DNA of 40,155 nt from a virus, in IMG/VR virus record IMGVR_UViG_3300025151_000101, positions 1-40,155 of that record; one strand, written 5' to 3'. Both the position numbers and the translations under genes were made by a program. Below are positions 1 through 39,402 of the stretch, piece by piece (position 1 is the first letter of the stretch; every line of letters begins with the position of its first letter). The notes beneath the pieces are model-generated. The model had not been told where the DNA came from and did not search any database. It saw nothing but the letters and a program-made list of their open reading frames with translations.

Positions 1-142
1 TATACGATAAGGTACCACACATCAAAAATTCATCAAGGCCTATTTTCACCGCACCCAAAGCTCCGCTTAGTTCTTACACCATAACGGGGCCGAGGGCTAG
101 CCGGGCCAGCACCATGTATATTGCGTATCCTAATTGTCAAAA

Positions 143-158
143 ACTAATTACAATTAGT
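143..158. promoter_or_regulatory. Operator-like dyad next to left early promoter
   Basis: ACTAATTACAATTAGT is a perfect inverted repeat: 7-base arms and a 2-base spacer. It touches the TATAC element of the minus-strand promoter at 158-186, on its downstream side, where a repressor would block the transcription start. The other copies of this promoter in the window lack the dyad. The function is inferred from position and symmetry; no regulator gene was recognised. Confidence 0.4.
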
Positions 159-186
159 ATACGTTCCAGAGTTCAAAAAAGTTCCA
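158..186 (-). promoter_or_regulatory. Early promoter copy P1 (faces left edge)
   Basis: Read on the minus strand this is TGGAAC, a spacer, then CGTATA. The TATAC and GTTCC elements (plus-strand view) start 23 bases apart, against 22 in the three copies at 36435, 38845 and 39375. The spacer resembles the 36.4 kb copy, both having a T run followed by GAA. No minus-strand gene lies between it and base 1, so its transcript leaves the window, or enters the early arm if the molecule is circular. Confidence 0.55.
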
Positions 187-512: not shown

Positions 513-572
513 AAAAACTTCAACAAACTAAACAAACTTAATTAAATATATATTATCTACCATTTAGATGTC

Positions 573-587
573 AAGTTTTATTAAATT
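573..587 (+). promoter_or_regulatory. Shared late leader motif, copy 1
   Basis: AAGTTTTATTAAATT ends five bases before the ATG at 593 and recurs exactly at 23455-23469, before the internal virion protein gene. Both copies lie in short AT-rich non-coding leaders at the head of a plus-strand gene group. It may be part of a late promoter or a conserved leader. Chance identity in AT-rich DNA is possible. Confidence 0.3.
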
Positions 588-830: not shown

Positions 831-1586
831 TTGGCACTGACTCGCACCATAAAGGGAGTCAAGCACTATGCCTACGAATCAGAAGAAGAGTTCCGTAAGG
901 CACATCCAGATACTCCGTTGATTACTGATTGGAAACAGGCAGAAGAAGGAGACTGGTGTTTATCCGATGATGGTAAGATTGTTCAGATACTAAAGAAAGG
1001 TTGTTTCGTAGATAAAAAGAAAAGGGACAACGATTATATCAGAACGGTTATTGGAATGTTTAACCACAGGGGGTCAAGTCCTTTTGTTGGTACAATCAAA
1101 GATGAGATATATAGATTTACAAAGAAAGCAGGGTATCAAGTCAAAACTGGTGGCTACCTGACAGAAGCAAAGAAAAACTTTGCAAAGTATGTAGCACATG
1201 GCATGGATCCTGTAGAGGCGTATCAAAAAGCATTTCCAAAGACAACCAGTTTAGATCATGCAGAAAGAAGATCAACACTACTACTTAAAAACAAAACAGT
1301 GAGGCAGGCAGTGGATAAAGAAATAGAAAACTTAATGTCAGAAGTAGGTATTACAAAACGATACCTACTGGAAACAACGAAAGATGTTATTGACAAGATA
1401 GACGTTAGGGACAATGACAAGCTTAGAGCGATAGAAACCCTGATGAAGATCTCTGGTTTGCTTTCTACAGAAAAGAAAGTAGACTCTGTAGCACTGATAC
1501 AGGAGTTCTCTGGATTCAGCAGAGAGAAGCTACAGGCATTTGAACAGGGCATACTGCCTGAAAAGCAGAAAGAACTAACTGAATGA
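831..1586 (+). CDS. Terminase small subunit
   Basis: This 251-residue protein should recognise phage DNA and recruit the large terminase. Residues about 1-85 form a small domain with GDWCLSDDGKIVQIL, an SH3-like pattern met in phage proteins. Residues about 110-215 carry the helical part typical of small terminases: an AKKNFAKYVAHGMDPVEAYQKAFP-type helix-turn-helix region, a stretch of Lys/Arg-rich helices, then RAIETLMKISGLL. The start is TTG, one base after the previous stop, with AGGA about 12 bases upstream. The 3' end overlaps the large terminase by ATGA, the usual arrangement for the pair. The family call rests on pattern and context. Confidence 0.8.
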   Translation: MALTRTIKGVKHYAYESEEEFRKAHPDTPLITDWKQAEEGDWCLSDDGKIVQILKKGCFVDKKKRDNDYIRTVIGMFNHRGSSPFVGTIKDEIYRFTKKAGYQVKTGGYLTEAKKNFAKYVAHGMDPVEAYQKAFPKTTSLDHAERRSTLLLKNKTVRQAVDKEIENLMSEVGITKRYLLETTKDVIDKIDVRDNDKLRAIETLMKISGLLSTEKKVDSVALIQEFSGFSREKLQAFEQGILPEKQKELTE

Positions 1587-3172
1587 GTTTTAATATTACC
1601 CCTCCACCATCAGAGATGGAGAAAAGAGATGAGGTATTAGCAAAAGCATATAGCAACCTTATCTACTTTGGTAGAGCGTTTCTACCTAATGACTTCCTGA
1701 AGAAGTCTGAATCAGCACCCTTCCACTACGAAATGGGAAAGAAAATGATAGATACAGCACCCGGTGCTCGTATCTGTAATATCATTCCTAGAGGTCACGG
1801 TAAATCAGTAGTAGCCAAAGCGGCTATCATGCATAAGCTATGCTTCGCCGCTGATGACCAGCAACACTTCATTGCATGGGTATCAGAAGAACAGTCACAG
1901 GCTATTGACCACTTGAAATACATTAGATCACACTTTGAAAACAATAAAATGATACGTTATTACTTTGGAAACATGGATGGTGGTAGTGTAGGCAAACGCT
2001 GGACAGAGAAAGATTTAGTAACACCAAAGGGTGATAGGGTTATATCCAAAGGTACATCACAGAGACTTAGAGGTAGGGCAGAGGTAGATGTGCGTTATAC
2101 TGGTATTGTGCTGGATGACTTTGAATCAGAGCTAAATACAAAAACGCCAGAAAGGCGTGCTGACATCAAGAAGTGGATCGTATCCACAGTGTACCCTGCC
2201 TTAGAAGAAACACCGGGCAATGAGGGCTGGATATGGCTGTCTGGGACTATTGTACACTATGACTCATATTTGCAAATGACCTATGATGGATGGAAAAAGG
2301 CACAAGAGGACAAAAGAGAGTATCCTTGGGACGTAAACTTCTACAGGGCTATTGAAGATGGTAAACCGCTGTGGTCATCTCAGTTCTCAAAAGAAAAGCT
2401 GGAAGCAAAGAAACGTGAGTTCATTGAAGCTGGACTGGTTAATAAGTTTGCTCAGGAGTACATGAATGATGCTAGAGATGTTTCCAGTGCATCATTTAAG
2501 ATAGATAGAATACAGTATTACAACGGAAGGGTTGAATGTAAGAATAAATTTAACTACCTTATAGACGGTGATGATGCTATCCCAATCAATATCTACATGG
2601 GTGTTGACCTTGCGGCGACTGCCTCAGAGACTTCTGACTATCAAGTCATACTGGTCATGGGCATTGATTCCAGCAACAATAGATATGTACTGGAATATTT
2701 TCGTGAGCGTATACCAACATTCGATGTTCCCAAGGAGATTATCCGACTTGCGAACAAATATGCACCGGTACGCCGTGTCACGATTGAAACAGTTGCGGCA
2801 CAGGAGATGGTTCGGGATATGGTTACGAGACTTTCCGCAAAAGAGAAAAGACTTCTTCCCGGCATATTTAAAGGCGTTAAGCCTCCATCTAGAATCAAAA
2901 AAGAAGATAGGCTGGAAACCAGTCTCGGCCCTCTTGTTAATTCTAAGAAGCTGTATCTACAAAGAGAGATGACAGAGCTGGTAGATGAGTTCTTTGAGCA
3001 CCCAAAGCCTAGAAACGATGATGTCATGGATGCATTGTACTATGCAGACTATTTTGCAAAACCACCGAAAAGCTCTAGAACCAAACGGGAAAGCCTGTTG
3101 AACGAACAGGAAACACCAACCAAACGCATTGCAAGAAAGACCTATAGCTGGATGACTGGTGCACGGGTTTAA
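1583..3172 (+). CDS. terL: Terminase large subunit (ATPase and nuclease)
   Basis: This 529-residue DNA packaging motor pumps DNA into the procapsid through the portal and cuts it. The Walker A motif is PRGHGKS at 69-75 and the Walker B motif is LDDFE at 177-181. Residues SGT at 220-222 fit the coupling motif. The C-terminal RNase H-like nuclease has D342 in MGVDLA, E402 in VTIETVAAQ, and D480/D483 in NDDVMDA. The length is normal for the family. It starts inside the end of the small terminase gene (ATGA). A 52-base non-coding gap follows, then the endolysin. Confidence 0.95.
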   Translation: MSFNITPPPSEMEKRDEVLAKAYSNLIYFGRAFLPNDFLKKSESAPFHYEMGKKMIDTAPGARICNIIPRGHGKSVVAKAAIMHKLCFAADDQQHFIAWVSEEQSQAIDHLKYIRSHFENNKMIRYYFGNMDGGSVGKRWTEKDLVTPKGDRVISKGTSQRLRGRAEVDVRYTGIVLDDFESELNTKTPERRADIKKWIVSTVYPALEETPGNEGWIWLSGTIVHYDSYLQMTYDGWKKAQEDKREYPWDVNFYRAIEDGKPLWSSQFSKEKLEAKKREFIEAGLVNKFAQEYMNDARDVSSASFKIDRIQYYNGRVECKNKFNYLIDGDDAIPINIYMGVDLAATASETSDYQVILVMGIDSSNNRYVLEYFRERIPTFDVPKEIIRLANKYAPVRRVTIETVAAQEMVRDMVTRLSAKEKRLLPGIFKGVKPPSRIKKEDRLETSLGPLVNSKKLYLQREMTELVDEFFEHPKPRNDDVMDALYYADYFAKPPKSSRTKRESLLNEQETPTKRIARKTYSWMTGARV

Positions 3173-5192: not shown

Positions 5193-7223
5193 ATGGATAA
5201 AGACCCTAGAGCTTCCTATAACGAAGAATTATATCGCCAATGGCGTGATTCAAGATCTGACTGGGACACAGAGGCCCGTAAGGATATTGACTTTTATCTT
5301 GGGAATCATTTTAGTCAAGATGAATCTGATGAGTTGTCTCAGAGGAATCAGGCAGACATACCAATGGACAGGATTTCTGCCGCTATTGAAAAGTTTAAAG
5401 CAGTACTAACATCCAGACCACCAGCGTTTACTATAACCCCTAGAGAAGATTCCGATGTGCAAGTTGCTACATTGTGGAGAACAGTCATGGGTTATGTGTG
5501 GCAAAACTCAGATGGTGACTGGCAGATGAAACAGGCAATACAGGATTATGCTACTACCGGCATGGGGTATCTGTATGCTTACATTGACTCAGAATCAGAT
5601 TTCGGTAGAGGTGACGTTAAGTTCACTTATGTTGACCCGTTTAGAGTGTACGCATCTCCCAGCTCTAGAGATCGTTGGTTTGGCGATTCGGATGGCATTA
5701 TCCTTTCCACCATCCTAACGGGAGAACAAGCCGTCAACCTCTACCCTGAATTGGCAGATAAACAAGACCCGCTTACTGGAGAAACGATACCCGGACTTAT
5801 AAATGACATTTCTGGGTTTACTTATGACGAAGAGGATTACCCGGCATCACAAAATAAAAATTCAATGGTAGTCTTTACACCAGCAGATGTAAAAGATAAA
5901 GATTATTATCAAGTAAAAAAGTATCAGGTATTAGAAAGATTTTATAAAGTCAAGGTTCCTTATTACAGAGTCATTGACATGCAGACACAGGATGAAGACA
6001 TTCTGTCTCAAGAAGAGTACGCCAAGTTCTATCAGGAAAACAAAGAAGCGTTTGACATTAATGCGTTTACAGCTATAGAAGTCTTACAGACTAGGGTGAA
6101 AGTATGTGCATCAATGGGAGAAGTTGTTTTGTATGAACAGATTTTAAATACGGATGAGTATCCAATCATACCACTTCCAAACATTTGGACTGGTACTCCA
6201 TATCCAAAGTCTGATGTATCTAGGGCTAGGCCAATGCAAAGGCTTTTAAATAAGCTATGGTCTTTGGCACTGTCTCATGCACAGGCATCCGCAGGATTAA
6301 AGCTTTTAGTACCTTTGGGTAGTGTGGACGACATAGATCAACTTGAAAAAGACTGGGCTAACCCGAACGCAGTCATTGAAGTGGATTCATCCCAAGGCGA
6401 ACCGCACTACCCTGCTCCTCAACCGCTTGCTGGTGAGTTCTATAGGTTGATACAGCAGTCAGAGTTTTACATAGATTTTATCTTTGGCCTACCAGAAATG
6501 ATGCATGGTTTTGCAGAGAAAGCTCCAGAGACCATGAGGGCTACAGAAAGAATGATAGCACTGGGTAGCGAAAGACCAAAGTCCAAACTCCGAGACATAG
6601 AGTTCAGTATTAACAAATTGGGTAAGGTTTTGTATAACCTATCCAAGGGTCACTACACCTACAAAAAGATTTTTAGACTGGCACAGCCAAATAACAACAT
6701 CACAGAGGTTATGGCAAACTTCTATACAGATGTATCTCAGTCAATCTTAGACCTGAAGAAAGAAAGACACATGCTAGACCAGCACGATGTAAGAATTGAA
6801 CCGGGATCAACAATGCCATCCAGTAAATATGCAGAACTAGCTGTATATCTAGAGGCGTTCCAGATGGGCATTGTAGACCGTTATGAAGTATTGAAGAAGA
6901 ATCCTGAGCTATTTGATAAGGAAGGTATTATGAGGAGGACGGAAGAGAAGCAGTTGATGCAACAGCAGATACAGGCAATGGATGCTCAGATAAAGAATTT
7001 GCAAGGTGACTTGCAGACAGCCCAAAGAGAATCAGTCAGTGATAGAAAGAGAGTCGAAGTTGAAAAGTTCAAGTCACGTTTGAGCGAAATTAATTCCGAG
7101 TCTAAGGCTGATAGAAGGGTACAACGTGGAAAACTAGAAAACGAGGTGAAGCTTGAGGTGGAGAAATTGGCTAGCAATCTCAAAGATGTACAGAGAAAAG
7201 TCAGTTCTACTCCAGAAGCCTAA
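5193..7223 (+). CDS. Portal protein
   Basis: This 676-residue protein should form the dodecameric ring at the capsid vertex through which DNA passes. The N-terminus (YRQWRDSRSDWDTEARKDIDFYLGNHF) and the following AAIEKFKAVLTSRPPAFTITPRE are typical of large podovirus portals, as are the DPFRVYASP region near 150 and the ETMRATERM helix near 445. Residues about 587-676 form a long charged coiled coil, as expected for the barrel or crown end. It starts one base after the preceding stop and is followed by the scaffold gene, the standard portal-scaffold-capsid order. Confidence 0.9.
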   Translation: MDKDPRASYNEELYRQWRDSRSDWDTEARKDIDFYLGNHFSQDESDELSQRNQADIPMDRISAAIEKFKAVLTSRPPAFTITPREDSDVQVATLWRTVMGYVWQNSDGDWQMKQAIQDYATTGMGYLYAYIDSESDFGRGDVKFTYVDPFRVYASPSSRDRWFGDSDGIILSTILTGEQAVNLYPELADKQDPLTGETIPGLINDISGFTYDEEDYPASQNKNSMVVFTPADVKDKDYYQVKKYQVLERFYKVKVPYYRVIDMQTQDEDILSQEEYAKFYQENKEAFDINAFTAIEVLQTRVKVCASMGEVVLYEQILNTDEYPIIPLPNIWTGTPYPKSDVSRARPMQRLLNKLWSLALSHAQASAGLKLLVPLGSVDDIDQLEKDWANPNAVIEVDSSQGEPHYPAPQPLAGEFYRLIQQSEFYIDFIFGLPEMMHGFAEKAPETMRATERMIALGSERPKSKLRDIEFSINKLGKVLYNLSKGHYTYKKIFRLAQPNNNITEVMANFYTDVSQSILDLKKERHMLDQHDVRIEPGSTMPSSKYAELAVYLEAFQMGIVDRYEVLKKNPELFDKEGIMRRTEEKQLMQQQIQAMDAQIKNLQGDLQTAQRESVSDRKRVEVEKFKSRLSEINSESKADRRVQRGKLENEVKLEVEKLASNLKDVQRKVSSTPEA

Positions 7224-8061: not shown

Positions 8062-9432
8062 ATGGCAATATCATACAATTCTGGAGTATTAAAGTCCAGT
8101 GATATTACTGCTACTACCTCTGATGCTAGTGTAGGTCAAAGACCGGATAGAAGACGAATATTTAATTTCGGCGACAGAGTTGCCGAATTGGCTCCTGAGG
8201 AGTCTCCATTTTTCGTCTATCTAAATCAGGTTGCTAAAGCACCTACCGATGACCCAGTGTTCCGTTATTTGGAAAACCGTAACCGAATTAGCTTTACAGA
8301 TCGTTCTTTACTTCTTAAAGGTGCTGTAAATGGTGGTTCCGCTGTTTCCGCAGGTTCTTCGTATTCATTTACTGTTGATACTGCTGGCGGTGCTACTGTT
8401 GACTACCTAGTAAAAGGAATGGTTTTGGCTGTCGGTACAGTTGATTCAGCGGCAGGATACGGTCAGGCATTAGTTAGAGTAGAGTCAGGAGTAAGTCATG
8501 CAAGTGCTGATTCATCATTTACTGGTAAAATAATTGATGTTTCTGCTGTCAGTGGAAGTAATGTTTTATCTGATAATGACGTAGCTCAAATCATAGGTTC
8601 TTCCTATGAAGAAGGTTCTGGTTCCCCAGACGTGTTCTCTTCTGAACTAGAAGATGACTTTGGGTACACCCAGATTTTTAAAACAGCGGCAGAAATGACC
8701 AACACTGCTTATGCAACTCGCTATCGTGGGTATGCTGAAGAGTGGAATCGTATCTGGGCTACCAAACTGCGTGAGCATAAGATTGACATTGAAAGAGCTA
8801 TGCTCTTCGGTCAAAGAGCTCGTGTAGGCGGTATCCAGTACACAGAAGGTCTAGTCGGTCACATCGTAAAGAATGTGTCACCAGTAGTAAACGATTCTGC
8901 ACTTTCCTATTCCTCTGGAAATGCTTATCACCGTAGCGTTGATCAAGCTGAATTAACATACGATAGATTGCTTAGTGATCTTGAAGTTATATTTGATCCA
9001 GCTAGAGGTGGAATGGCAGAAAAGCTAGTACTATGTAGTTTACCAGTCATTACATTCTTTAACAAGTTAGGTGACGGTGCGTTTCTTGATGCATCTATTG
9101 GTCATTCCAATGGCCCATTCAGACTAAACATGGACTCAAGAGAAGGTGCTTTTGGACATTCCGTTATGGTAATTGATACCATTCATGGAAAGTTAAACCT
9201 TGTCAAAGAGCCATTGTTTAGAGGAATCGCATCTGGGTTTATGCTCATGGCTGATATGACACAACTTGCTTATCGTCCGCTAGTCGGTAACGGTATCAAT
9301 CGTGACACTCAAGTTATGACCAATATACAGGCGGCTGATGAGGATTTAAGGAAAGATATGATCTTAACCGAAGCTGGTTTAGAGATTACTCTTCCTGAGT
9401 CACACGCACTGTTCAACCTAGAAGGGGTGTAA
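8062..9432 (+). CDS. Major capsid protein (HK97-type, SU10/DUF5309-like)
   Basis: This 456-residue shell protein has an N-terminal FNFGDRVAELAPEESPFFVYL segment, a Ser/Gly-rich beta insertion at about 95-185, and a central helix of the type AEMTNTAYATRYRGYAEEW followed by LREHKIDIERAMLFGQ. That helix pattern is like the capsid family typified by phage SU10 (DUF5309), itself HK97-like. No protease gene or long delta domain is evident, so scaffolding is by the separate protein upstream. AAAGGTAACAAA precedes the ATG. It should be one of the most highly expressed genes of the late arm. Confidence 0.9.
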   Translation: MAISYNSGVLKSSDITATTSDASVGQRPDRRRIFNFGDRVAELAPEESPFFVYLNQVAKAPTDDPVFRYLENRNRISFTDRSLLLKGAVNGGSAVSAGSSYSFTVDTAGGATVDYLVKGMVLAVGTVDSAAGYGQALVRVESGVSHASADSSFTGKIIDVSAVSGSNVLSDNDVAQIIGSSYEEGSGSPDVFSSELEDDFGYTQIFKTAAEMTNTAYATRYRGYAEEWNRIWATKLREHKIDIERAMLFGQRARVGGIQYTEGLVGHIVKNVSPVVNDSALSYSSGNAYHRSVDQAELTYDRLLSDLEVIFDPARGGMAEKLVLCSLPVITFFNKLGDGAFLDASIGHSNGPFRLNMDSREGAFGHSVMVIDTIHGKLNLVKEPLFRGIASGFMLMADMTQLAYRPLVGNGINRDTQVMTNIQAADEDLRKDMILTEAGLEITLPESHALFNLEGV

Positions 9433-26472: not shown

Positions 26473-29400
26473 ATGGCTGAATCCACCAAGCAATATTCAT
26501 ATTACGATGACCTATTAAATAGCTTGTCTGGAGATTTGGATGACGTTTCCATACAAAAGGTGCAAAACACTGGAGATTATTTAGATCAAAAATCAGATTA
26601 CGATAATAACTTATTTGATTCTTCTACATACTACGATGCACTATTAGAAAAAAACACAGAATATAAAGTTTCAAAAGAAGACAAAGACCTGTATGGGTTT
26701 ATACCCGGAGACTGGCTACCTGATTGGGTAAAAGCTGGTTACAATCAAAGCATTACAGGTTTAGCAGAGCAGGTCGCTACTGGAGAATCTAGGTTTGACC
26801 TGTCTAATTATAATCCCGGTATATTAGAAGATGTTGGTGCTATGGTTGTTTCTTTTTTACAGCCAGCAGACATTGGAACTATGATAGCCGGTGGTGGAGT
26901 TGGTGGTTTTTTTGCAAAGTCAGCAACAAAAGCTGGAATAAAGAAAGCAATACAGCAAGGAGTTGGTAAGGGTGTAGGTGCAAGTGACGACTTAGTAAAG
27001 GCTATCATTGGTAAAAACGCAGAAGAGGCAAAGAGAAGACTTCTTTTAAATAAGGTTCCTTTAAAAACTGCTGAAGAGGTAATAAAGAAGGCTACTCCAA
27101 GAGTCGTAAATCAGGCTTTTCAAGCTAGTATTGTAGGCGGTACTGAATTAGGTTTTTACAGTGGATTACAATCAAGCCTTGGGCAGATAGCTGATCCTCA
27201 ACAGGAATTTGATTTTTTAATGAATGTTAGAAACGCATCTAAAGGTTTTGTATTAGGTGCAACTACAGGTGCTCTTGGCCCAGTAGTTCAATCAGCTACA
27301 AAGAACCTTAATCCCATTACTCAACTAGCGGCTACGAAGGCGGCACAAACTGTTGATTTTGCTGTGGTGGCTCCCGTATTAGAGGGTGAACTTCCAAGCC
27401 CTGAAGACTTTGCGTATGCGGCTGGGGTAGTAGGTGCTTTAGGTGCACAAAGGTTTGCTACGGGTAACTTGGTTAAGGGTTACAAAAAGATTAGACAGGC
27501 GAAGAAGGATGTAAAATTAACATCAGATGAAGGAGCTAAGATATTAGGTCAGATAGAAACAGAAACTGTTATACAGCCCAATGAGGTTTTTGTAGATAGG
27601 AATGGTGTCAGGGTAAAGAATGTTGTGTTTGATAAAAGGACTGTCACAAAATCAGAAAAGAAAACTGAGTTAGGATCAGAAAAAGTTAAAATAGATGAAG
27701 ATATTGTAAAGTTAAAAGATGCTGATACAAACAAACAATTAGACCCTATTTCATTTGCAGAGTTTCAACAGAGAGGTTTTACTAGGGGTGGTAAGGGTAG
27801 CCCTGCTGAACTTACACAGAGAAGGATTAGCGGTATATTTGACATAAGAAAAAATTTAAAAATGGACGATAACACTTTTCAAGATAGGGCTGGTGTTATT
27901 ACTGGTAAAGATTTAGTAGGCCAGAATCCAAAGCGTATTGTAAAGAACATGACACCTCTTGAGCAACTTAAAATGTTAAATCAAATGAGGCATGAAACAA
28001 GAGTTGTAAAACTTTCAGAGCGTTTGAAGAATAATGGGTGGGAGACCACAATGGTTCCTAATAAAACATTGTCTGACTATCACGGTTTTAAGGTATTAGA
28101 TCGCTCAGGTAAAAGGTTAAATACTCAGTTGTCTACTGAAGTAACTCGTAGAGTTAATGATGCAGATGCTAGGTATTTTACATTGATGGGTACTTTTAGC
28201 CAAAGGTTTACTGATGCCGGTTTAGAATCAGCAGGAATGGCAAAAGTATTGGAAAAGTTTCCAACCAAAGCTAGAGAGAAGGCAAGTCAAGATGCTATTG
28301 AGTTGGGTAAAAAACTGGAGAACCCAGCTTTTGCTAATGACCCAAAGGTAAGAGAATACAGAGCTATACTTGATGATATGTGGGAGATAGCACGCAAAGC
28401 GGGTGTAGACCTAGGGCCAAAAGAAGAATTTTATTTTCCCAGAATTATAAAGCAAGACATCTTAAAGGTACTGTCTAATGACATAGCAAAATTAAGAGAT
28501 AAAAATCCTCAGTTGTTTACTGAAAATGCAATGTATAACAAGCCTGAGTTTCAAAAAGTTATAGGTGACATTGTTTCAAAGGGTAGTATGTCTGAAAAGT
28601 CTCTTAAAGCAATATATGAAATGGCTGGAATTAGTAGGAAAGAAAAAAGAGAGAAGATACCAGATTTTAATTTAAGAGTTTCTAAGGTGTTTCAAAGATT
28701 AAACACGACAGTAAATACTCAATATCACAACATTGCTAAAAATTTAGAACTTGCTAGAAAAGCAAAAGACCTTCCAGATTTTATGTTAGAGAGAGATGCT
28801 AGGGTAGCACTAGCACAGTATACCCATCAATGGGCAAGGCGTGTTGCTAGTGTTGAACAGTTTGGTAATAAAGGTGAGTTCTGGAAAAGGTCTATCAGTG
28901 AGTTAAGGAAGATGGGAAGAAATGAAAAGAACCAGTACACTGAGAAACAGATAGATGTATTTAAAAAAGAGGCTGATATACTTGATCAGCTTTATAAAAT
29001 ACAAAGCAATAATATAGAACTTGATCCATCATATAATTGGAAAAGTGCATCGGCTAGAAAAGTATGGAGTGATATTGTAGACTTTGAGATAGGTTCTAAA
29101 ATAGGATTAGGTTTTGCAACTGTTCCTAACTTAACTCAGTTGTCTATATCTACTGCCGTTAAGGCGGGTTACTACCCAGTTATAAAGGGCATGTATAAAC
29201 TATCTACTTCTTCTGAATACAGAAAGCTTATTAGGAATTCAGGTGTTAGTAATATTTCTCTGTATCAGTCTCTTGCAGGGCTTAACCCCAATGACTCTTT
29301 CATGGGTAAATTTGCAGAAGGTGCTACATGGTTGTCTGGTTTTAAAAAGATAAACGAGATAAACCAGTTGGTGTCATCTGCGGCCGCTAAAGAATGGATT

Positions 29401-30384
29401 GATCTATTACAGCCAATAGCACAGGGTAAGGGCACCGGAATATTTAAAGCAAGACAAAATTGGGCTAGGCAGAACTTGAGCGATTTAGGCTTTAGGGACA
29501 TCAACAAGATTACAGACAGACAGAAATCTGAAGCTATGTACAGATTTGCAAGAGACACGCAGTTACAAAGAAACATATTGGAAGAGCCTTTAGTTTTCAA
29601 CGACCCAAGATTTAGACCATTGTTTTTATTTAAGAAGTTTGGATATAAGCAATTTAACTGGGTCAGGGGTCAACTTGGTTCTGAACTAAAAAGAGGTAAT
29701 GTGTTTCCCATGTTAAGAATAGCATCTGCTGGTTTGCTCGGTGGTGAGTTTGTTTCTTACGCTAGAGATTGGTTGTCAGAAGCGTATGCTGGAAGAGAAG
29801 TGTATGACGAGAATGAGTACTTCTTAGATTTTGGTGGATTAAAAGACGTAGCCTTTGGAGATAGAAAAATAAATTCTTTGGTCAAAGTAGATCGAATGAC
29901 ATGGGGTGATGTGCTTGATAGGTTCTCATCTGTTGGTGCATTTGGAATTGGTATGGATATAGTCGCATCTGAAAATACAATAAGAGCTTTAGAATTTGCG
30001 GGTAAACCTGCTGTTGTTCAAGACTTTGATAAAATATGGACAGCCATGACTAGGACTTGGGAAAACTTAGGTGAGTATGGAGGTATTGGAGCATTGCAAA
30101 GATTGCCTAAGTATATTGCACCAGTTTTAGGAACAGTCCCTAGAAGATTAGCAGAAAGAATAGAACCCGCAGGTCAGCGTAAAAGCTATGTTAAATACAG
30201 AAAAGGATTGACTCGTGCAAAAATATTAGATTTTATAATTGAAGGGGATTCTGTAAAAGCTACAAGACTTATAAAGAATTGGAACAGATCGTTTCCAGAA
30301 AGCCCTTTGTTGTATGATGATATATCAGTTGACGAGATCACAAAAAGAATTATAAACAAAGCAAAGAAAAAAGCTAACCCTTAG
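26473..30384 (+). CDS. Large internal virion / ejection protein
   Basis: At 1303 residues this is the largest gene. Residues about 1-80 are acidic and Tyr-rich. Gly/Ala-rich hydrophobic segments follow at about 115-165 (TMIAGGGVGGFFAKSATKAG) and 205-290 (FQASIVGGTELGFYSG; GFVLGATTGALGPVV), then a long helical body. Another hydrophobic region lies at about 870-900 (GLGFATVPNLTQLSISTAV). No transglycosylase motif was recognised, unlike T7 gp16. It is the last gene of the late arm, and its end overlaps an early gene on the other strand by 11 bases. Role inferred from size, layout and position. Confidence 0.75.
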   Translation: MAESTKQYSYYDDLLNSLSGDLDDVSIQKVQNTGDYLDQKSDYDNNLFDSSTYYDALLEKNTEYKVSKEDKDLYGFIPGDWLPDWVKAGYNQSITGLAEQVATGESRFDLSNYNPGILEDVGAMVVSFLQPADIGTMIAGGGVGGFFAKSATKAGIKKAIQQGVGKGVGASDDLVKAIIGKNAEEAKRRLLLNKVPLKTAEEVIKKATPRVVNQAFQASIVGGTELGFYSGLQSSLGQIADPQQEFDFLMNVRNASKGFVLGATTGALGPVVQSATKNLNPITQLAATKAAQTVDFAVVAPVLEGELPSPEDFAYAAGVVGALGAQRFATGNLVKGYKKIRQAKKDVKLTSDEGAKILGQIETETVIQPNEVFVDRNGVRVKNVVFDKRTVTKSEKKTELGSEKVKIDEDIVKLKDADTNKQLDPISFAEFQQRGFTRGGKGSPAELTQRRISGIFDIRKNLKMDDNTFQDRAGVITGKDLVGQNPKRIVKNMTPLEQLKMLNQMRHETRVVKLSERLKNNGWETTMVPNKTLSDYHGFKVLDRSGKRLNTQLSTEVTRRVNDADARYFTLMGTFSQRFTDAGLESAGMAKVLEKFPTKAREKASQDAIELGKKLENPAFANDPKVREYRAILDDMWEIARKAGVDLGPKEEFYFPRIIKQDILKVLSNDIAKLRDKNPQLFTENAMYNKPEFQKVIGDIVSKGSMSEKSLKAIYEMAGISRKEKREKIPDFNLRVSKVFQRLNTTVNTQYHNIAKNLELARKAKDLPDFMLERDARVALAQYTHQWARRVASVEQFGNKGEFWKRSISELRKMGRNEKNQYTEKQIDVFKKEADILDQLYKIQSNNIELDPSYNWKSASARKVWSDIVDFEIGSKIGLGFATVPNLTQLSISTAVKAGYYPVIKGMYKLSTSSEYRKLIRNSGVSNISLYQSLAGLNPNDSFMGKFAEGATWLSGFKKINEINQLVSSAAAKEWIDLLQPIAQGKGTGIFKARQNWARQNLSDLGFRDINKITDRQKSEAMYRFARDTQLQRNILEEPLVFNDPRFRPLFLFKKFGYKQFNWVRGQLGSELKRGNVFPMLRIASAGLLGGEFVSYARDWLSEAYAGREVYDENEYFLDFGGLKDVAFGDRKINSLVKVDRMTWGDVLDRFSSVGAFGIGMDIVASENTIRALEFAGKPAVVQDFDKIWTAMTRTWENLGEYGGIGALQRLPKYIAPVLGTVPRRLAERIEPAGQRKSYVKYRKGLTRAKILDFIIEGDSVKATRLIKNWNRSFPESPLLYDDISVDEITKRIINKAKKKANP

Positions 30385-34886: not shown

Positions 34887-35413
34887 ATTATACACCTGTA
34901 ACGCTCATCCTTATTGTAAAGTTCCAAATTTTCTTCATATTCTTTTATAATATCTTGAACGTCTGCATGGTACTTAAAATCTTTAAATGTTTTTATCTGA
35001 TGACAGTTACGACACCTGACCACACACTTCTCTATTTCTCTCTTGATCGTGCTCCACTTGTAGCCGTTACGAACTAGGTATCCAACTCCTGCACCTCTTT
35101 GATGTTTGATACTACGCTTGACTCCTGTAACGTGATCAAACTCCAGAACTCGTGGATCTTGTGTACCGCAATCCACACACCCTTTTGAAAAGTACAGTTC
35201 TAATATTTTTTTAAAGTTGGCTCGTTTCACTCTTGCTTTTCTAGTATAATTTTTTTCTATGATTCGTTTTTTGTTCTTTTTGTACCAGTTACGATTGTGG
35301 TATTTCTTTTGACATTCCTTGCATTTAGCTTGTCTACCATCTTTCTTTTGACGATTCTTATAGAAGTCACTTATTGGTTTTTTGGTTTTGCATCTTCCAC
35401 ATCTTTTTAACAT
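34883..35413 (-). CDS. HNH endonuclease with N-terminal zinc domain
   Basis: This 176-residue protein has an N-terminal zinc module (C5-x2-C8, C31-x2-C34) followed by a basic linker (about 39-67) and an HNH domain: C79-x2-C82, D93-H94 in EFDHV, then C134-x2-C137-H138 (RCRNCHQ). The layout is like free-standing phage homing endonucleases, which nick DNA to spread, or packaging-associated HNH enzymes; it is far from the terminase, so homing is favoured. The ATG at 35413 follows GGGGT. A TATAAT box lies upstream, so the gene may have its own promoter. Confidence 0.8.
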   Translation of the reverse strand: MLKRCGRCKTKKPISDFYKNRQKKDGRQAKCKECQKKYHNRNWYKKNKKRIIEKNYTRKARVKRANFKKILELYFSKGCVDCGTQDPRVLEFDHVTGVKRSIKHQRGAGVGYLVRNGYKWSTIKREIEKCVVRCRNCHQIKTFKDFKYHADVQDIIKEYEENLELYNKDERYRCII

Positions 35414-36028: not shown

Positions 36029-36388
36029 TTACGCTACCTCTTCTTCTAAGGGATAAGTTTCATACTCATCGAGTTTCTCAAGGACACCTTGAACTAGATG
36101 CCATATCCCCTCAAACCTCATGGTTCTCTTATATTGATCGTCTAGCCTACCCTGATTACAATCCCAGTTATATTTATTTACAGCCTTTAAAACATTTAGC
36201 ATCTCAGGTGCGGACGTTATTAATCTAGCATTGCTTTCTAGCTCTTTTTTAGGTAGACCCCTGTTCATCTCGCAAATTGCTTCTGCAAAGGCTTCTTCCT
36301 CAATATATCCATGTATCGAATAGCGGTTGACCTCATCGAATACCCACTTCCCTTTAGTTATGTTGTTAGTAACAGTTTGATTTTTCAT
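36029..36388 (-). CDS. Hypothetical protein downstream of promoter P2 (119 residues)
   Basis: Contains KWVFDEVNRYSIHGYIEEEAFAEAICEMNRGLPKKELESNARLITSAPEMLNVLKAV, a pattern of phage early proteins with an NARLI(T/A)SAPEML motif that recurs in many phages and prophages as I recall. It is the first gene after P2 (TATA element about 47 bases upstream of its ATG). The leader AACAAAGGAGTTAA provides the ribosome site. The function is not known. Confidence 0.65.
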   Translation of the reverse strand: MKNQTVTNNITKGKWVFDEVNRYSIHGYIEEEAFAEAICEMNRGLPKKELESNARLITSAPEMLNVLKAVNKYNWDCNQGRLDDQYKRTMRFEGIWHLVQGVLEKLDEYETYPLEEEVA

Positions 36389-36434: not shown

Positions 36435-36462
36435 TATACGCTCTAGGTTTCAAAAAGTTCCA
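36435..36462 (-). promoter_or_regulatory. Early promoter copy P2
   Basis: On the minus strand: TGGAAC, TTTTTGAAACCTAGAG, CGTATAAG. The TATAC and GTTCC elements (plus view) begin 22 bases apart, as in P3 and P4. It lies in the 76-base gap between genes ending at 36465 and starting at 36388. Confidence 0.6.
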
Positions 36463-36464
36463 AA

Positions 36465-36749
36465 TTAATTTTTTAGAGGGGCGATAATATACTTGTATAT
36501 CCTACCTCCAAGTGCGTTCTCATACCTAAATTCAGAAAATTTCAGAGGTTGATTGTGTTCTGCAACAAAAACCATTCTCACATAATCCCTGACTTTCTTA
36601 TTTATTCTCCTCCCTTCTTTCCATTGCAATGTTCTGTTCTCTCCCCAATCATCGTAGCTAAACTCACTAGCCCTTACACCACACATGCCCAGTAACAGCA
36701 TTATTTTAGCCTCTACGGGACTTTTATGGTTGTGGGTATATGTTACCAT
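36465..36749 (-). CDS. Hypothetical protein (94 residues)
   Basis: Has KSPVEAKIMLLLGMCGVRASEF then LQWKEGRRINKKVRDYVRMVFVAEHNQPLKF, alternating helix and strand. AAGGAG precedes the ATG. The TAA stop overlaps the distal end of promoter P2. The AEAKIMLLL-type start is met in small phage nuclease-like proteins but no catalytic residues are evident. Function unknown. Confidence 0.6.
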   Translation of the reverse strand: MVTYTHNHKSPVEAKIMLLLGMCGVRASEFSYDDWGENRTLQWKEGRRINKKVRDYVRMVFVAEHNQPLKFSEFRYENALGGRIYKYIIAPLKN

Positions 36750-36768
36750 GCCTTACTCCTTAATTGTT

Positions 36769-37080
36769 TTATTTATTGTTATTATATATTCTTAACTGTT
36801 CTGATATTTCGACTGGTCGGTCTTTACTATACAGGATTTCATCAGCATGATACCCTGACCTATAATCCCAATCTCCTTCGTTATTGGTTTTAGAATACTC
36901 ACGATCTGCCAGTTTTCTATTCCTATCGTACTCTTTTTGTAAATGAATTTGTACTTCCTCAATAATTTCACATTTCTCAACAGGATTAAGTTTTTCAAAC
37001 TGTTGGAAGTATTTAACAAAGAACTCAGTACTTGGCTTTCCTCCGTTTTTATTGCGAACAGCTCTAAACAACCCCTTCAC
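36769..37080 (-). CDS. Hypothetical protein (103 residues)
   Basis: A highly charged, helical protein (VKYFQQFEKLNPVEKCEIIEEVQIHLQKEYDRNRKLADREYSK). The GTG start overlaps the preceding TAG (TAGTG). No family recognised. Part of the P3-P2 operon. Confidence 0.6.
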   Translation of the reverse strand: MKGLFRAVRNKNGGKPSTEFFVKYFQQFEKLNPVEKCEIIEEVQIHLQKEYDRNRKLADREYSKTNNEGDWDYRSGYHADEILYSKDRPVEISEQLRIYNNNK

Positions 37081-37373
37081 TACTCCTCCTCTTCTATAAA
37101 ATGGTATACTTCTACATGGGTGTTGCAGTCGTAGTTAGAACAAGAAAAGTTGGATGCGATACCTTCCTTGTCCTCTTCTAGCATGACCTCTTGTATGTCG
37201 TGGTCTCCACCCCAAATCAGTTCAGAATCACAATGCCAACATCTAAATCTGTGTAAATCATTTGGATCCTGTGATGCGATTACGTTCTGTAACTTCTTTA
37301 TTTTCTCCTCTCTTCGTTCCACCATCTGTTCATACTTTAGAACTTCCAACTGCAACTCCATGTATTCTTTCAC
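37080..37373 (-). CDS. Coiled-coil zinc-ribbon protein (97 residues)
   Basis: Residues about 1-35 form a coiled coil (MELQLEVLKYEQMVERREEKIKKLQN), followed by C45-x2-C48 (RCWHCDSELIWGG) and C78-x4-C83 (SCSNYDCNTHV), a zinc ribbon with an acidic C-terminus. The upstream frame is open to 37484 but that part encodes an unlike stretch; a GTG at 37373 with GGAGAGG, overlapping the TGA of the 43-residue membrane gene, is the likelier start. Zinc-dependent protein or RNA binding is possible. Confidence 0.65.
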   Translation of the reverse strand: MKEYMELQLEVLKYEQMVERREEKIKKLQNVIASQDPNDLHRFRCWHCDSELIWGGDHDIQEVMLEEDKEGIASNFSCSNYDCNTHVEVYHFIEEEE

Positions 37374-37501
37374 TTTCCTCTCCAGTCCTGTATTGAATAA
37401 ATAACCAAGCAAACTACAAATAACACCATTGTCAAAGTTATTAAACTCATGGAGAATACGAACAGGTTTATCACCCATTCCCATAAATCTACCAGTATCA
37501 T
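37370..37501 (-). CDS. Small membrane protein (43 residues), overlapping
   Basis: Hand translation gives a 43-residue protein that is mostly one or two hydrophobic helices (residues about 10-36, NLFVFSMSLITLTMVLFVVC region), with a short acidic start MILVDLWEWV and a basic end QDWRGK. GAGGAG stands upstream. Its ATG overlaps the previous TGA (ATGA, 37501-37498) and its TGA overlaps the next GTG. It occupies, in another frame, the region otherwise read as the N-terminus of the zinc-ribbon gene. Small early membrane proteins can be superinfection exclusion or membrane-modifying factors; this is speculation here. Confidence 0.65.
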   Translation of the reverse strand: MILVDLWEWVINLFVFSMSLITLTMVLFVVCLVIYSIQDWRGK

Positions 37502-37761
37502 TTGCTCTCCTCTACATATTTACTAAACTCAATAAATTTCTCCCATTGAGCTATGGCATGTATTCCATCAGAAGCGATCCACTCACCCTCAACAAGCATA
37601 ATAAGTTGCCCGTCAGATAATTCATAAAGCTCTTTATGTATCCTTGACGTATAATCTTCTATTATTTCGCCTATTCCTTTTGTATGTACAATCATATCAA
37701 CATAGCGATCTTGAAAGTCTATTCGCTCTTTAGAATGTGATTCTTCTTTTGTCTTTTCCAT
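37498..37761 (-). CDS. Hypothetical protein (87 residues)
   Basis: Charged helix-rich sequence with DMIVHTKGIGEIIEDYTSRIHKELYELSDGQLIMLVEGEWIASDGIHAIAQWEKFIEF. Start at TAATG from the upstream gene, end at ATGA into the small membrane gene. No family was identified. Confidence 0.6.
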   Translation of the reverse strand: MEKTKEESHSKERIDFQDRYVDMIVHTKGIGEIIEDYTSRIHKELYELSDGQLIMLVEGEWIASDGIHAIAQWEKFIEFSKYVEESK

Positions 37762-37937
37762 TATTGTTCCACCTGTTTTGCTCTCTTATATAAGAAAGCC
37801 TCTATGATCTGTATCATTAGATCGTGATTGATGTTATGTTCTTCCATCAAATGACTCGCCAAACTGTCTATCACCTCGTCAAACTCAGGGAATAAGACCT
37901 CGCATAGCTTGTCAAATACTAATTCGTTATTGTCCAT
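37761..37937 (-). CDS. Small acidic helical protein (58 residues)
   Basis: Starts MDNNELVFDKLCEVLFPEFDEVIDSLASHLMEEHN and ends in KRAKQVEQ. AGAGGAGAGCAAAGA is an excellent ribosome site for the ATG at 37937. The frame is open to an ATG at 37982 that overlaps the upstream stop (ATGA), adding 15 polar residues; that start has poor ribosome-site support. Function unknown. Confidence 0.6.
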   Translation of the reverse strand: MDNNELVFDKLCEVLFPEFDEVIDSLASHLMEEHNINHDLMIQIIEAFLYKRAKQVEQ

Positions 37938-37978
37938 TCTTTGCTCTCCTCTTGTATTTTCTTTTTGGTTTCGGTGGC

Positions 37979-38353
37979 TCATAACCCAAGATCACTTGCC
38001 TTACCAGTTCCATTGTTTTTATGAACTTGTTCATTGTCCTTTCCTTTGTATTTATGTAGCATAGCTACCATTAGTAGAAGATAGTTTATGATGTCGCTCA
38101 TTCTACCTTCTATTGGTTCTGCATACTCCTTACCAGTTTTAAAGTAACTGAATAAACTGGATGTATGCTTTTGTAAATATACAGATAGAACTTGCATAGG
38201 TGTAAGGTTCAATGTGTTGGCTATGTTCTCAAAGTTCCATAGTACGTTTGTTTCGTGATTGCCTTCTGTATACTCAATTCGTTTCTCGTCTGAAAGTTTC
38301 AAAGTTTCTGTAAGGAACTTGTTTCTCAGAACTTCATATTCTTTAGCTGTCAT
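37979..38353 (-). CDS. Nucleotide-modification-associated-domain-like protein
   Basis: The 124 residues carry EYTEGNHETNVLWNFENIANTLNLTPMQVLSVYLQKHTSSLFSYF and EGRMSDIINYLLLMVAMLHKYKG. This order (NF..IA, V..YL.KH, DI.NYLLL) resembles small phage proteins of the DUF6378/DUF1599 kind associated with nucleotide metabolism or DNA modification. The match is by pattern recall. The ATG overlaps the preceding TAA (TAATG). Confidence 0.5.
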   Translation of the reverse strand: MTAKEYEVLRNKFLTETLKLSDEKRIEYTEGNHETNVLWNFENIANTLNLTPMQVLSVYLQKHTSSLFSYFKTGKEYAEPIEGRMSDIINYLLLMVAMLHKYKGKDNEQVHKNNGTGKASDLGL

Positions 38354-38550
38354 TACTTTACCTCTTGTACATTTTTCTTTACATAATCTAAAGTCATGTA
38401 CCTATCTTTAGATTTATTTAAAAAGACTGGTTCATCGAGTTTATCGAATCCACCCTTATAACATATTGAATCAATCGTTATTACATCTTTAGGTTGTCCA
38501 TCTCCATAATCCTGATTCCATAAAACCTTTCTACCTAAGTATTTCTTCAT
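38353..38550 (-). CDS. Hypothetical protein (65 residues)
   Basis: Basic protein starting MKKYLGRKVLWNQDYGDGQPKDVITIDSICYKGG; Lys- and Tyr-rich with likely beta structure. Coupled on both sides by TAATG overlaps. Not recognised. Confidence 0.6.
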   Translation of the reverse strand: MKKYLGRKVLWNQDYGDGQPKDVITIDSICYKGGFDKLDEPVFLNKSKDRYMTLDYVKKNVQEVK

Positions 38551-38810
38551 TATCCCGCCTCACTATCTTTTCTTTCCCACTCTAGTGCTTCTTGGTCTAG
38601 CTCTTCCTCTAGTTTCATTAACTCCCTTTCCTCTATTAGCTTTTTTGCTGACTCTAGTTTCTCTTCTTCTGTTCCGTCCCAACCTTCTAGGTGGTCATCC
38701 TCAATGCACCTCAATGCCCATTGAATATCAATGTCGGTGTCTATTTCTTCTAACCTATTCTCCAGTTCAGCAAGTTTCTCAAAGTGTCCAGTTTCTGTAA
38801 TGTTACCCAT
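38550..38810 (-). CDS. Acidic coiled-coil protein downstream of promoter P3
   Basis: This 86-residue protein is acidic and helical: HFEKLAELENRLEEIDTDIDIQWALRCIEDD, then EEEKLESAKKLIEERELMKLEEELDQEALEWERKD. AAGGAG and the spacing select the ATG at 38810. The frame is open to 38939, but that reads through promoter P3, so longer starts are rejected. Acidic helical early proteins can mimic DNA or bind host proteins; no evidence here. Confidence 0.65.
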   Translation of the reverse strand: MGNITETGHFEKLAELENRLEEIDTDIDIQWALRCIEDDHLEGWDGTEEEKLESAKKLIEERELMKLEEELDQEALEWERKDSEAG

Positions 38811-38844
38811 TTGCTTCTCCTTTTTTTTCATTGGATATGGCATG

Positions 38845-38873
38845 TATACGCTCCTTGTTGTTATAAGTTCCCA
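38845..38873 (-). promoter_or_regulatory. Early promoter copy P3
   Basis: On the minus strand: TGGGAAC, TTATAACAACAAGGAG, CGTATACA. TATACG and GTTCC begin 22 bases apart (plus view). It lies in the 64-base gap before the acidic coiled-coil gene. CGTATA is preceded by GAG as in P2. Confidence 0.6.
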
Positions 38874-38874
38874 T

Positions 38875-39351
38875 TTATTTAGGCAGTATGTAGTAGTCTG
38901 TGGCAAATCTTCTTTTGTTCTGATTTTTGAAACTACCATTGCTTTCTGCTTTAATTGGATCTACAAATGCAAAATCTTTGTAGTACAGCTTACCCTTCAG
39001 TTCTTCAGGCTGTGGGTAAAAGATTACGTTGTTTCCAGTATCTTCAAGTGGTACAGCTATATAATCACAATGATTGGGCGTTACTTTTACGTGTAAAGAG
39101 TGACCATAAGACGTGTCTGATATTCTTGTACTGTATTTAACTTGTATAGATTTCCAATTATTTATCAGGGTTCTTTTACCCCATTTCTTTGGTTTACAGA
39201 CAACCATGTCTATTCCTAAGTCTACATCAGGTCTAGTAACAATGTACCCATTCTTCAAAAAAAGATTAGCTACTTTGTTTTCTCCTATTATTCCTTGTAC
39301 CATCGTACCCACATCTAAGGTAGTGGTGCTTTTATATCGTTGTTTCTTCAA
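38875..39351 (-). CDS. PD-(D/E)XK endonuclease-like protein
   Basis: This 158-residue protein carries G23-E24-N (GENKVANLFLKNG), D44/D48 in PDVDLGIDMVV, and Q70-V-K72 (SIQVKYS), the E, D and (E/Q)xK residues of the PD-(D/E)XK fold as in archaeal Holliday-junction resolvase-like and PDDEXK_11-type nucleases. The C-terminus (HCDYIAVPLEDTGNNVIFYP) matches the family's later strands. The TTG start is selected by AAGGAG with 6-base spacing; promoter P4 lies upstream. Confidence 0.75.
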   Translation of the reverse strand: MKKQRYKSTTTLDVGTMVQGIIGENKVANLFLKNGYIVTRPDVDLGIDMVVCKPKKWGKRTLINNWKSIQVKYSTRISDTSYGHSLHVKVTPNHCDYIAVPLEDTGNNVIFYPQPEELKGKLYYKDFAFVDPIKAESNGSFKNQNKRRFATDYYILPK

Positions 39352-39374
39352 TCTTAACTCCTTTGTTTATTACT

Positions 39375-39402
39375 TATACTACGTTGTGTTTGATTGGTTC
39401 CA
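39375..39402 (-). promoter_or_regulatory. Early promoter copy P4
   Basis: On the minus strand: TGGAAC, CAATCAAACACAACGTA, GTATAAG. TATAC and GTTCC start 22 bases apart. It directly precedes AACAAAGGAGTTAA and the TTG start at 39351, about 24 bases from the TATA element. Confidence 0.55.

Follow-up and report, generated by a model that had tools for sequence, protein, structure and literature searches.

The early strand of a tailed-phage genome, IMG/VR record IMGVR_UViG_3300025151_000101 (G000; the window hereafter, 40,155 bases comprising the entire record, classed as linear), carries a repeated two-box element that recurs across the relatives of this phage, and the copies are almost certainly promoters. 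Overall the element consists of an A-tract, TGGAACTTTTT, N11 and (C/A)GTATAA, an architecture that probably places it among the promoters read by extracytoplasmic function (ECF, group 4) sigma factors. Taken as a whole, the sequence comparisons favour, with some reserve, early promoters that serve an ECF sigma factor of the host. A literature search, with subscription journals mostly outside its scope, found no description of ECF-type phage early promoters.

Exact matches to GGAAC-N16/17-[CA]GTATA number four in the window, all on the minus strand (Table 1), against a mean of 0.073 and a maximum of one in 300 dinucleotide shuffles. The original prediction, made from the letters of the window, had described four sites with a shared order and near-constant spacing of the two boxes, and the re-read sequences agree; the -10 box it gave, CGTATA, holds for the copies at 158, 36435 and 38845 and is slightly too strict for the copy at 39375, which has AGTATA. 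It had also placed three copies in the only sizeable gaps of their part of the early arm, and between 36389 and 40125 only three gaps reach at least 20 nt (76, 33 and 58 nt), each holding one of the right-hand copies. All four copies have orthologues. The N17 spacer of the lead promoter at 158 is kept in G002, G003, G008, G010, G012 and G016, while the copy at 36435 is matched in G001, G002, G004, G005, G006, G008 and G015, the copy at 38845 (where N16 is counted from GGAAC) in G001, G002, G003, G005, G006 and G008, and the copy at 39375 in G001, G002 and G004. A degenerate fifth copy, proposed at 34897-34926 on the minus strand within the HNH gene (GGAAC-N17-CGTTAC), is not supported: agreement at 9 of 11 positions is common on both strands and at the level of chance, and same-clade relatives keep the GGAAC without the -10 box at this position, as expected of mere HNH coding sequence. 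Perfect sites at the 3' end of the HNH gene in G013 and G017 imply that this position is used, though not demonstrably in the window.

A capsid search of IMG/VR recovered hundreds of relatives of the window. Across the window and 18 relatives, the early strand has 42 copies of GGAAC-N16/17-CGTATA without mismatch and the late strand none (mean for permuted motifs, 0.2); with one mismatch allowed there are 83 early copies against five late ones (permuted motifs, 8.7 and 10.0). When the spacer was varied from 8 to 29 in the same genomes with at most one mismatch, there was a single peak at 16 (74 early, 3 late) with a shoulder at 17 (9 early, 2 late), and other gaps gave about 0-7 early matches. 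The window and 25 related records together hold 126 early-strand and nine late-strand sites with at most one mismatch, distributed over 25 of the 26 genomes (G014 has none). A Shine-Dalgarno (SD) sequence, a start codon and an open reading frame of at least 40 codons follow within 160 nt at 93 of 123 sites, against 16% of random early-strand positions, and where an SD and start follow, the median distance from the -10 box to the start is 34 nt. Position weight matrices with iterative retraining drifted to A-rich or SD-like sequence and were dropped for exact two-box counts with permuted-motif controls. Because of the strand bias, the fixed spacing, the placement before start codons and the presence in nearly all relatives examined, the copies are best described as a repeated early promoter, as had been predicted from the window, and the enrichment expected of a motif search was found on the early strand, the frequency not being equal in coding or late DNA. 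Near-fixed spacing, directionality and a position just upstream of translation starts are likewise features of bacterial sigma-dependent two-box promoters.

These features also make it very improbable that the element is the operator of a repressor or other regulator and not a promoter, since fixed strand, fixed two-box spacing and placement before starts belong to promoters, and the inverted repeat that would suit an operator, seen in the -35/spacer region of some G002, G004, G005 and G015 copies, is present in a minority. In those copies (early strand; G002:25091, G005:27042, G015:2332/2966/3281 and G004:12256) a near-perfect inverted repeat, GGAAGTCGGGAAC-TTTT-CCCGACTTCC, spans the -35 box and spacer and is followed by AGTATA; it could be an operator or a terminator-like element.

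In the sequence logo, positions -10 to -4 relative to the box are A-rich; tTGGAACTTTTT follows, and the -10 box reads (C 0.60, A 0.31) G0.97 T1.00 A0.94 T0.96 A0.92 A0.63. The G, A, A and C of the -35 box and the GTATA of the -10 box are near invariant and a T-tract follows the AAC, though box conservation is inflated because a site qualified only if it had no more than one mismatch to GGAAC/CGTATA. This selection did not involve the two tracts of T and A, the A that follows GTATA, or the free base (T 0.32, A 0.37) where TATAAT needs its final T. That free base bears on whether the copies are ordinary host sigma-70 promoters with a TATAAT-like -10 (GTATAAt), in which GGAAC is contacted by an activator or by the C-terminal domain of the polymerase alpha subunit. 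While (C/A)GTATAA is readable as TATAAN and the A-rich upstream tracts are like UP elements, a sigma-70 promoter has a TTGACA-like -35 box and a TATAAT with a conserved final T, and the motif has neither; moreover, the G before TATA is near invariant and the -35 box is conserved at least as well as the -10 box. A canonical promoter, TTGACA-N18-TATATT, is present in the same genomes and conserved in about eight relatives, which speaks for an ordinary primary sigma factor in the host. Sigma-70 promoters are on these grounds an improbable explanation of the repeated motif.

Under the ECF explanation, the RNA polymerase of the host, together with one of the host's own ECF sigma factors (a stress sigma of the EcfG/RpoE2-like or SigW-like kind), would recognise an A-rich upstream tract, the -35 box TGGAACTTTTT and, N16 (sometimes 17) from GGAAC, the -10 box (C/A)GTATAA. 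Transcription would be expected to start about 6-9 nt past the -10 box, by analogy with other promoters; in most cases the distance from that box to the downstream SD and start codon is 25-45 nt. Small accessory early genes would then be transcribed at once after DNA entry, with one canonical sigma-70 promoter working alongside at the head of the early arm.

Profile searches of about 30 records, including three closed relatives, gave no match to Pfam sigma-70 region 2 and none over the cut-off to sigma region 4, with positive cellular controls. Weak Sigma70_r4_2 matches in five relatives were below the cut-off and rejected. In G006, G007, G017 and G024 the matched part is about half of the domain and the frames are about 1730-1800 codons long; in G004 half of the domain is matched, in a late-strand frame of 637 codons. 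Among the 27 early proteins of the closed relative G013, PHROGs and Pfam identified no transcription family, and those that could be named are nucleases, SSB-like and metalloprotease-like. Because they have no recognisable sigma factor or RNA polymerase of their own, the phages probably borrow a stress sigma of the host. Near the head of the early arm, motif copies stand before many accessory genes that differ from lineage to lineage, suggesting that the factor is present at entry, and a factor in the cell before infection would be a host ECF sigma. It is fairly likely that the recognising factor is encoded by the host. Of the possible readers named in the original prediction (a host alternative sigma factor, a modified polymerase or a phage polymerase encoded outside the window), the alternative sigma factor gains from the ECF architecture and the phage polymerase loses ground.

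A promoter for a single-subunit or virion RNA polymerase of the phage is scarcely credible. Several large virion proteins (593-1303 aa) are unassigned and might accommodate such an enzyme, but they have no convincing DFDGD motif, the family of the 1303-aa protein has no PDB relative, and two boxes with a spacer varying between 16 and 17 are unlike single-subunit polymerase promoters. T7-type RNA polymerase (PF00940) was absent from 21 records, a weak negative since the control genomes gave no match either. The 1303-aa late protein (26473-30384, plus strand) is conserved in 18 genomes without a Pfam, PHROG or PDB relative and is possibly an injected virion protein.

Less easily set aside, though still unlikely, is a divergent phage sigma factor or sigma-appropriating activator (phiEco32 gp36-like or T4 MotA/AsiA-like) that would read the copies as delayed-early promoters. 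Most early proteins are of unknown function, the sigma-70-like lead promoter upstream would provide a two-step logic in which the factor is made first, and the phiEco32 sigma site, tAATGTAtA, shares GTATA with the motif (PMC8948821). Against such a factor stand the sigma-domain searches and the nature of the early genes shared by the family: located distally in the arm, these chiefly encode nucleases, a resolvase, an SSB-like protein and a few small proteins without an assigned function. A helical, conserved early protein of 135 aa, considered as a candidate regulator, was rejected, having a model of moderate quality and no structural match.

Several points weigh against early promoters for a host ECF sigma. 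The transcription starts are predicted ones, and (C/A)GTATAA overlaps a TATAAT-like sequence that would fit sigma-70 with an activator. Divergent phage sigmas were possibly missed by the profiles, among known examples gp36 of phiEco32, which reads tAATGTAtA, and gp47 of phage 7-11, which reads GTAAtg-16-aCTA (PMC8948821). The CGTT of EcfG promoters is rare, with A after CGT in 94% of sites and a few copies having CGTTTA. A host search by capsid alignment in 84,980 genomes returned no relative. Finally, the largest cluster among the motif matches listed from those genomes, 105 matches in the Nitrospirae metagenome-assembled genome DUZI01 (G039), was rejected as promoters: it consists of an interspersed repeat (GCCCTAGGAACTTTTTTTATAAGGTGTCGTATAAAAAT...; more than 100 copies, often at contig ends) that mimics the motif and whose flanks and spacer are conserved.

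Beyond the close relatives, a search for TGGAACTTTTT-N10-12-CGTATAA in 2.9 million viral contigs returned 69 stretches, about 60 of which come from the phage family of the window, to judge by homologues of window, G013 or G011 proteins. One with ten sites (L146/G021), considered as an unrelated phage, proved to be a distant member of this family. L168 (IMGVR_UViG_3300027279_000050; 58% G+C) lies outside it and has two sites of its own (5636-5662 and 6527-6553), both in A-rich islands and with an identical GGCGG-CCTAAAACGCAGGAG leader after each, so that the promoter type is not strictly confined to the family; a recombination ATPase gene is all that ties L168 to Alteromonas/Idiomarinaceae phages. 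Motif clusters were absent from the isolate phages closest in capsid or terminase (CRP-810, CRP-5, Mel-JY34 and CAM-P21) and from the Alteromonas/Idiomarinaceae phages related to L168, and no tRNA genes were found as a clue to the host. In the 84,980 genomes, the matches listed for GGAACTTTTT-N11/12-CGTATAA include many Bacillaceae sites before SD-led genes and, in several Bacillus and Peribacillus loci, sites before bPH_2-type genes (one gene was checked by profile and the others are near-identical in sequence), which are taken to be ydbS-like. In B. subtilis, ydbST is in the sigma-W regulon (PMC3498285).

The window has its late arm on the plus strand and its early arm on the minus strand. 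In searches of a phage collection, nothing matched the central 20 kb or the portal, and all matches to the terminase and capsid were below 60% identity; by these comparisons the collection holds no close relative. Among the IMG/VR relatives, end repeats are consistent with closed genomes in G011 (42.8 kb), G013 (42.9 kb) and G025 (45.6 kb). These three phages of about 43-46 kb also encode DUF932 and GP88 proteins in the early arm, and none of their scanned proteins stood out as a DNA polymerase, primase or RNA polymerase. Between its right and left ends the window seems to be missing about 2.9 kb, because its left copy is directed out of the record at the left end, where relatives have a leader and early genes; in G002 this interval holds a DUF932 gene and two further motif copies. 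In relatives, the lead promoter is followed by a leader of about 190 nt and then by early genes. The leader is shared with G002, G006, G008, G010 and G012, including a near-invariant CGGTGAAAATAG block, had no match in Rfam, and is possibly a structured early RNA or leader; its consensus fold has two-sided changes in 8 of 25 pairs, weak covariation support from only six sequences. Low-complexity TACTATATATAC-type repeats lie at about 330-560, between the sigma-70-like and the lead ECF-like promoters. At the right-hand copies, the listed reading frame 38550-38939 probably starts at ATG 38810, and the product of 38875-39351 has a weak DUF4365 match (E 0.011) below the Pfam cut-off.

Table 1. Promoter copies, proposed target genes and other features of the window
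Feature	Position	Strand	Details
Lead early promoter	158-186	-	TGGAACTTTTTTGAACTCTGGAACGTATA; -35 GGAAC, N17, -10 CGTATA
Early promoter	36435-36462	-	TGGAACTTTTTGAAACCTAGAGCGTATA; TGGAAC-N16-CGTATA; 46 nt before ATG 36388
Early promoter	38845-38873	-	TGGGAACTTATAACAACAAGGAGCGTATA; GGAAC-N16-CGTATA; 34 nt before likely ATG 38810
Early promoter	39375-39402	-	TGGAACCAATCAAACACAACGTAGTATA; TGGAAC-N16-AGTATA; 23 nt before TTG 39351
Early gene	36029-36388	-	Proposed driver, 36435 promoter; phrog_1273, function unknown
Early gene	38550-38810	-	Proposed driver, 38845 promoter; start moved to ATG 38810 after GGAG
Early gene	38875-39351	-	Proposed driver, 39375 promoter; TTG start; phrog_5018 at 4e-8
Canonical sigma-70-like promoter	545-574	-	TTGACA-N18-TATATT; late/early arm junction, points into early arm
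Conserved non-coding leader	1-140	-	Downstream of lead promoter; GCGGTGAAAATAGGCCT block
TerS	831-1586	+
TerL	1583-3172	+
Portal	5193-7223	+
Major capsid	8062-9432	+
Early arm	about 40125 (right end) to 30374	-	RusA-like, PDDEXK, Cas4-like and HNH proteins and many small unknowns

As a rule, the early promoters of phages mimic the sigma-70 housekeeping promoters of their hosts. That a host ECF stress sigma is instead the standing early switch of a widespread phage family, tying the first steps of infection to host stress, is offered tentatively, as an idea with slightly less than even prospects. Were it true, the success of infection would be coupled to host stress or starvation, which bears on sea water, with its many starved cells (the samples are presumably marine, to judge by IMG numbering), and, if a host were found, its ECF sigma/anti-sigma pair would predict when the phage expresses its early genes.

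The motif combines an AAC-core -35 box, a 16-17 spacer and a CGT(A/T)-type -10 box, as in the ECF consensus. SigW promoters of Bacillus, TGAAAC-N16,17-CGTA(T) (PMC2375139), with the -35 box also quoted as ATTGAAACCTTT (PMC8103513), share the spacing, the CGTAT of the -10 box and the AAC core of the -35 box; the phage -35 box differs by one base, TGGAAC for TGAAAC (G at 95% there, in sites whose selection centred on GGAAC and allowed no more than one mismatch overall), the phage -10 box tolerates AGTATA, and the phage family is an uncultured one. General-stress EcfG promoters of alphaproteobacteria, GGAAC-N16-CGTT (PMC7083833), have the same -35 core, identical spacing and the same CGT opening of the -10 box, whereas the usual phage -10 box is CGTATA or AGTATA and no nepR/phyR/ecfG context was seen. 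Copies with CGTTTA, in G010 and G012, are nearer to the EcfG -10 box. Judged by its consensus, the motif departs from a strict SigW promoter by one -35 base and from a strict EcfG promoter by one -10 base. The E. coli RpoE promoter has a TCTGA-like -10 box and differs from the phage motif there. Its -35 box, GGAACTT, is the same (PMC8103513). The promoters of phiEco32 and 7-11 are likewise repeated phage promoters for host core polymerase with a non-primary sigma factor, as is proposed here, but they are middle or late promoters with another consensus and a phage-encoded sigma, whereas in the family of the window no phage sigma is recognised and the promoters lie on the early strand.

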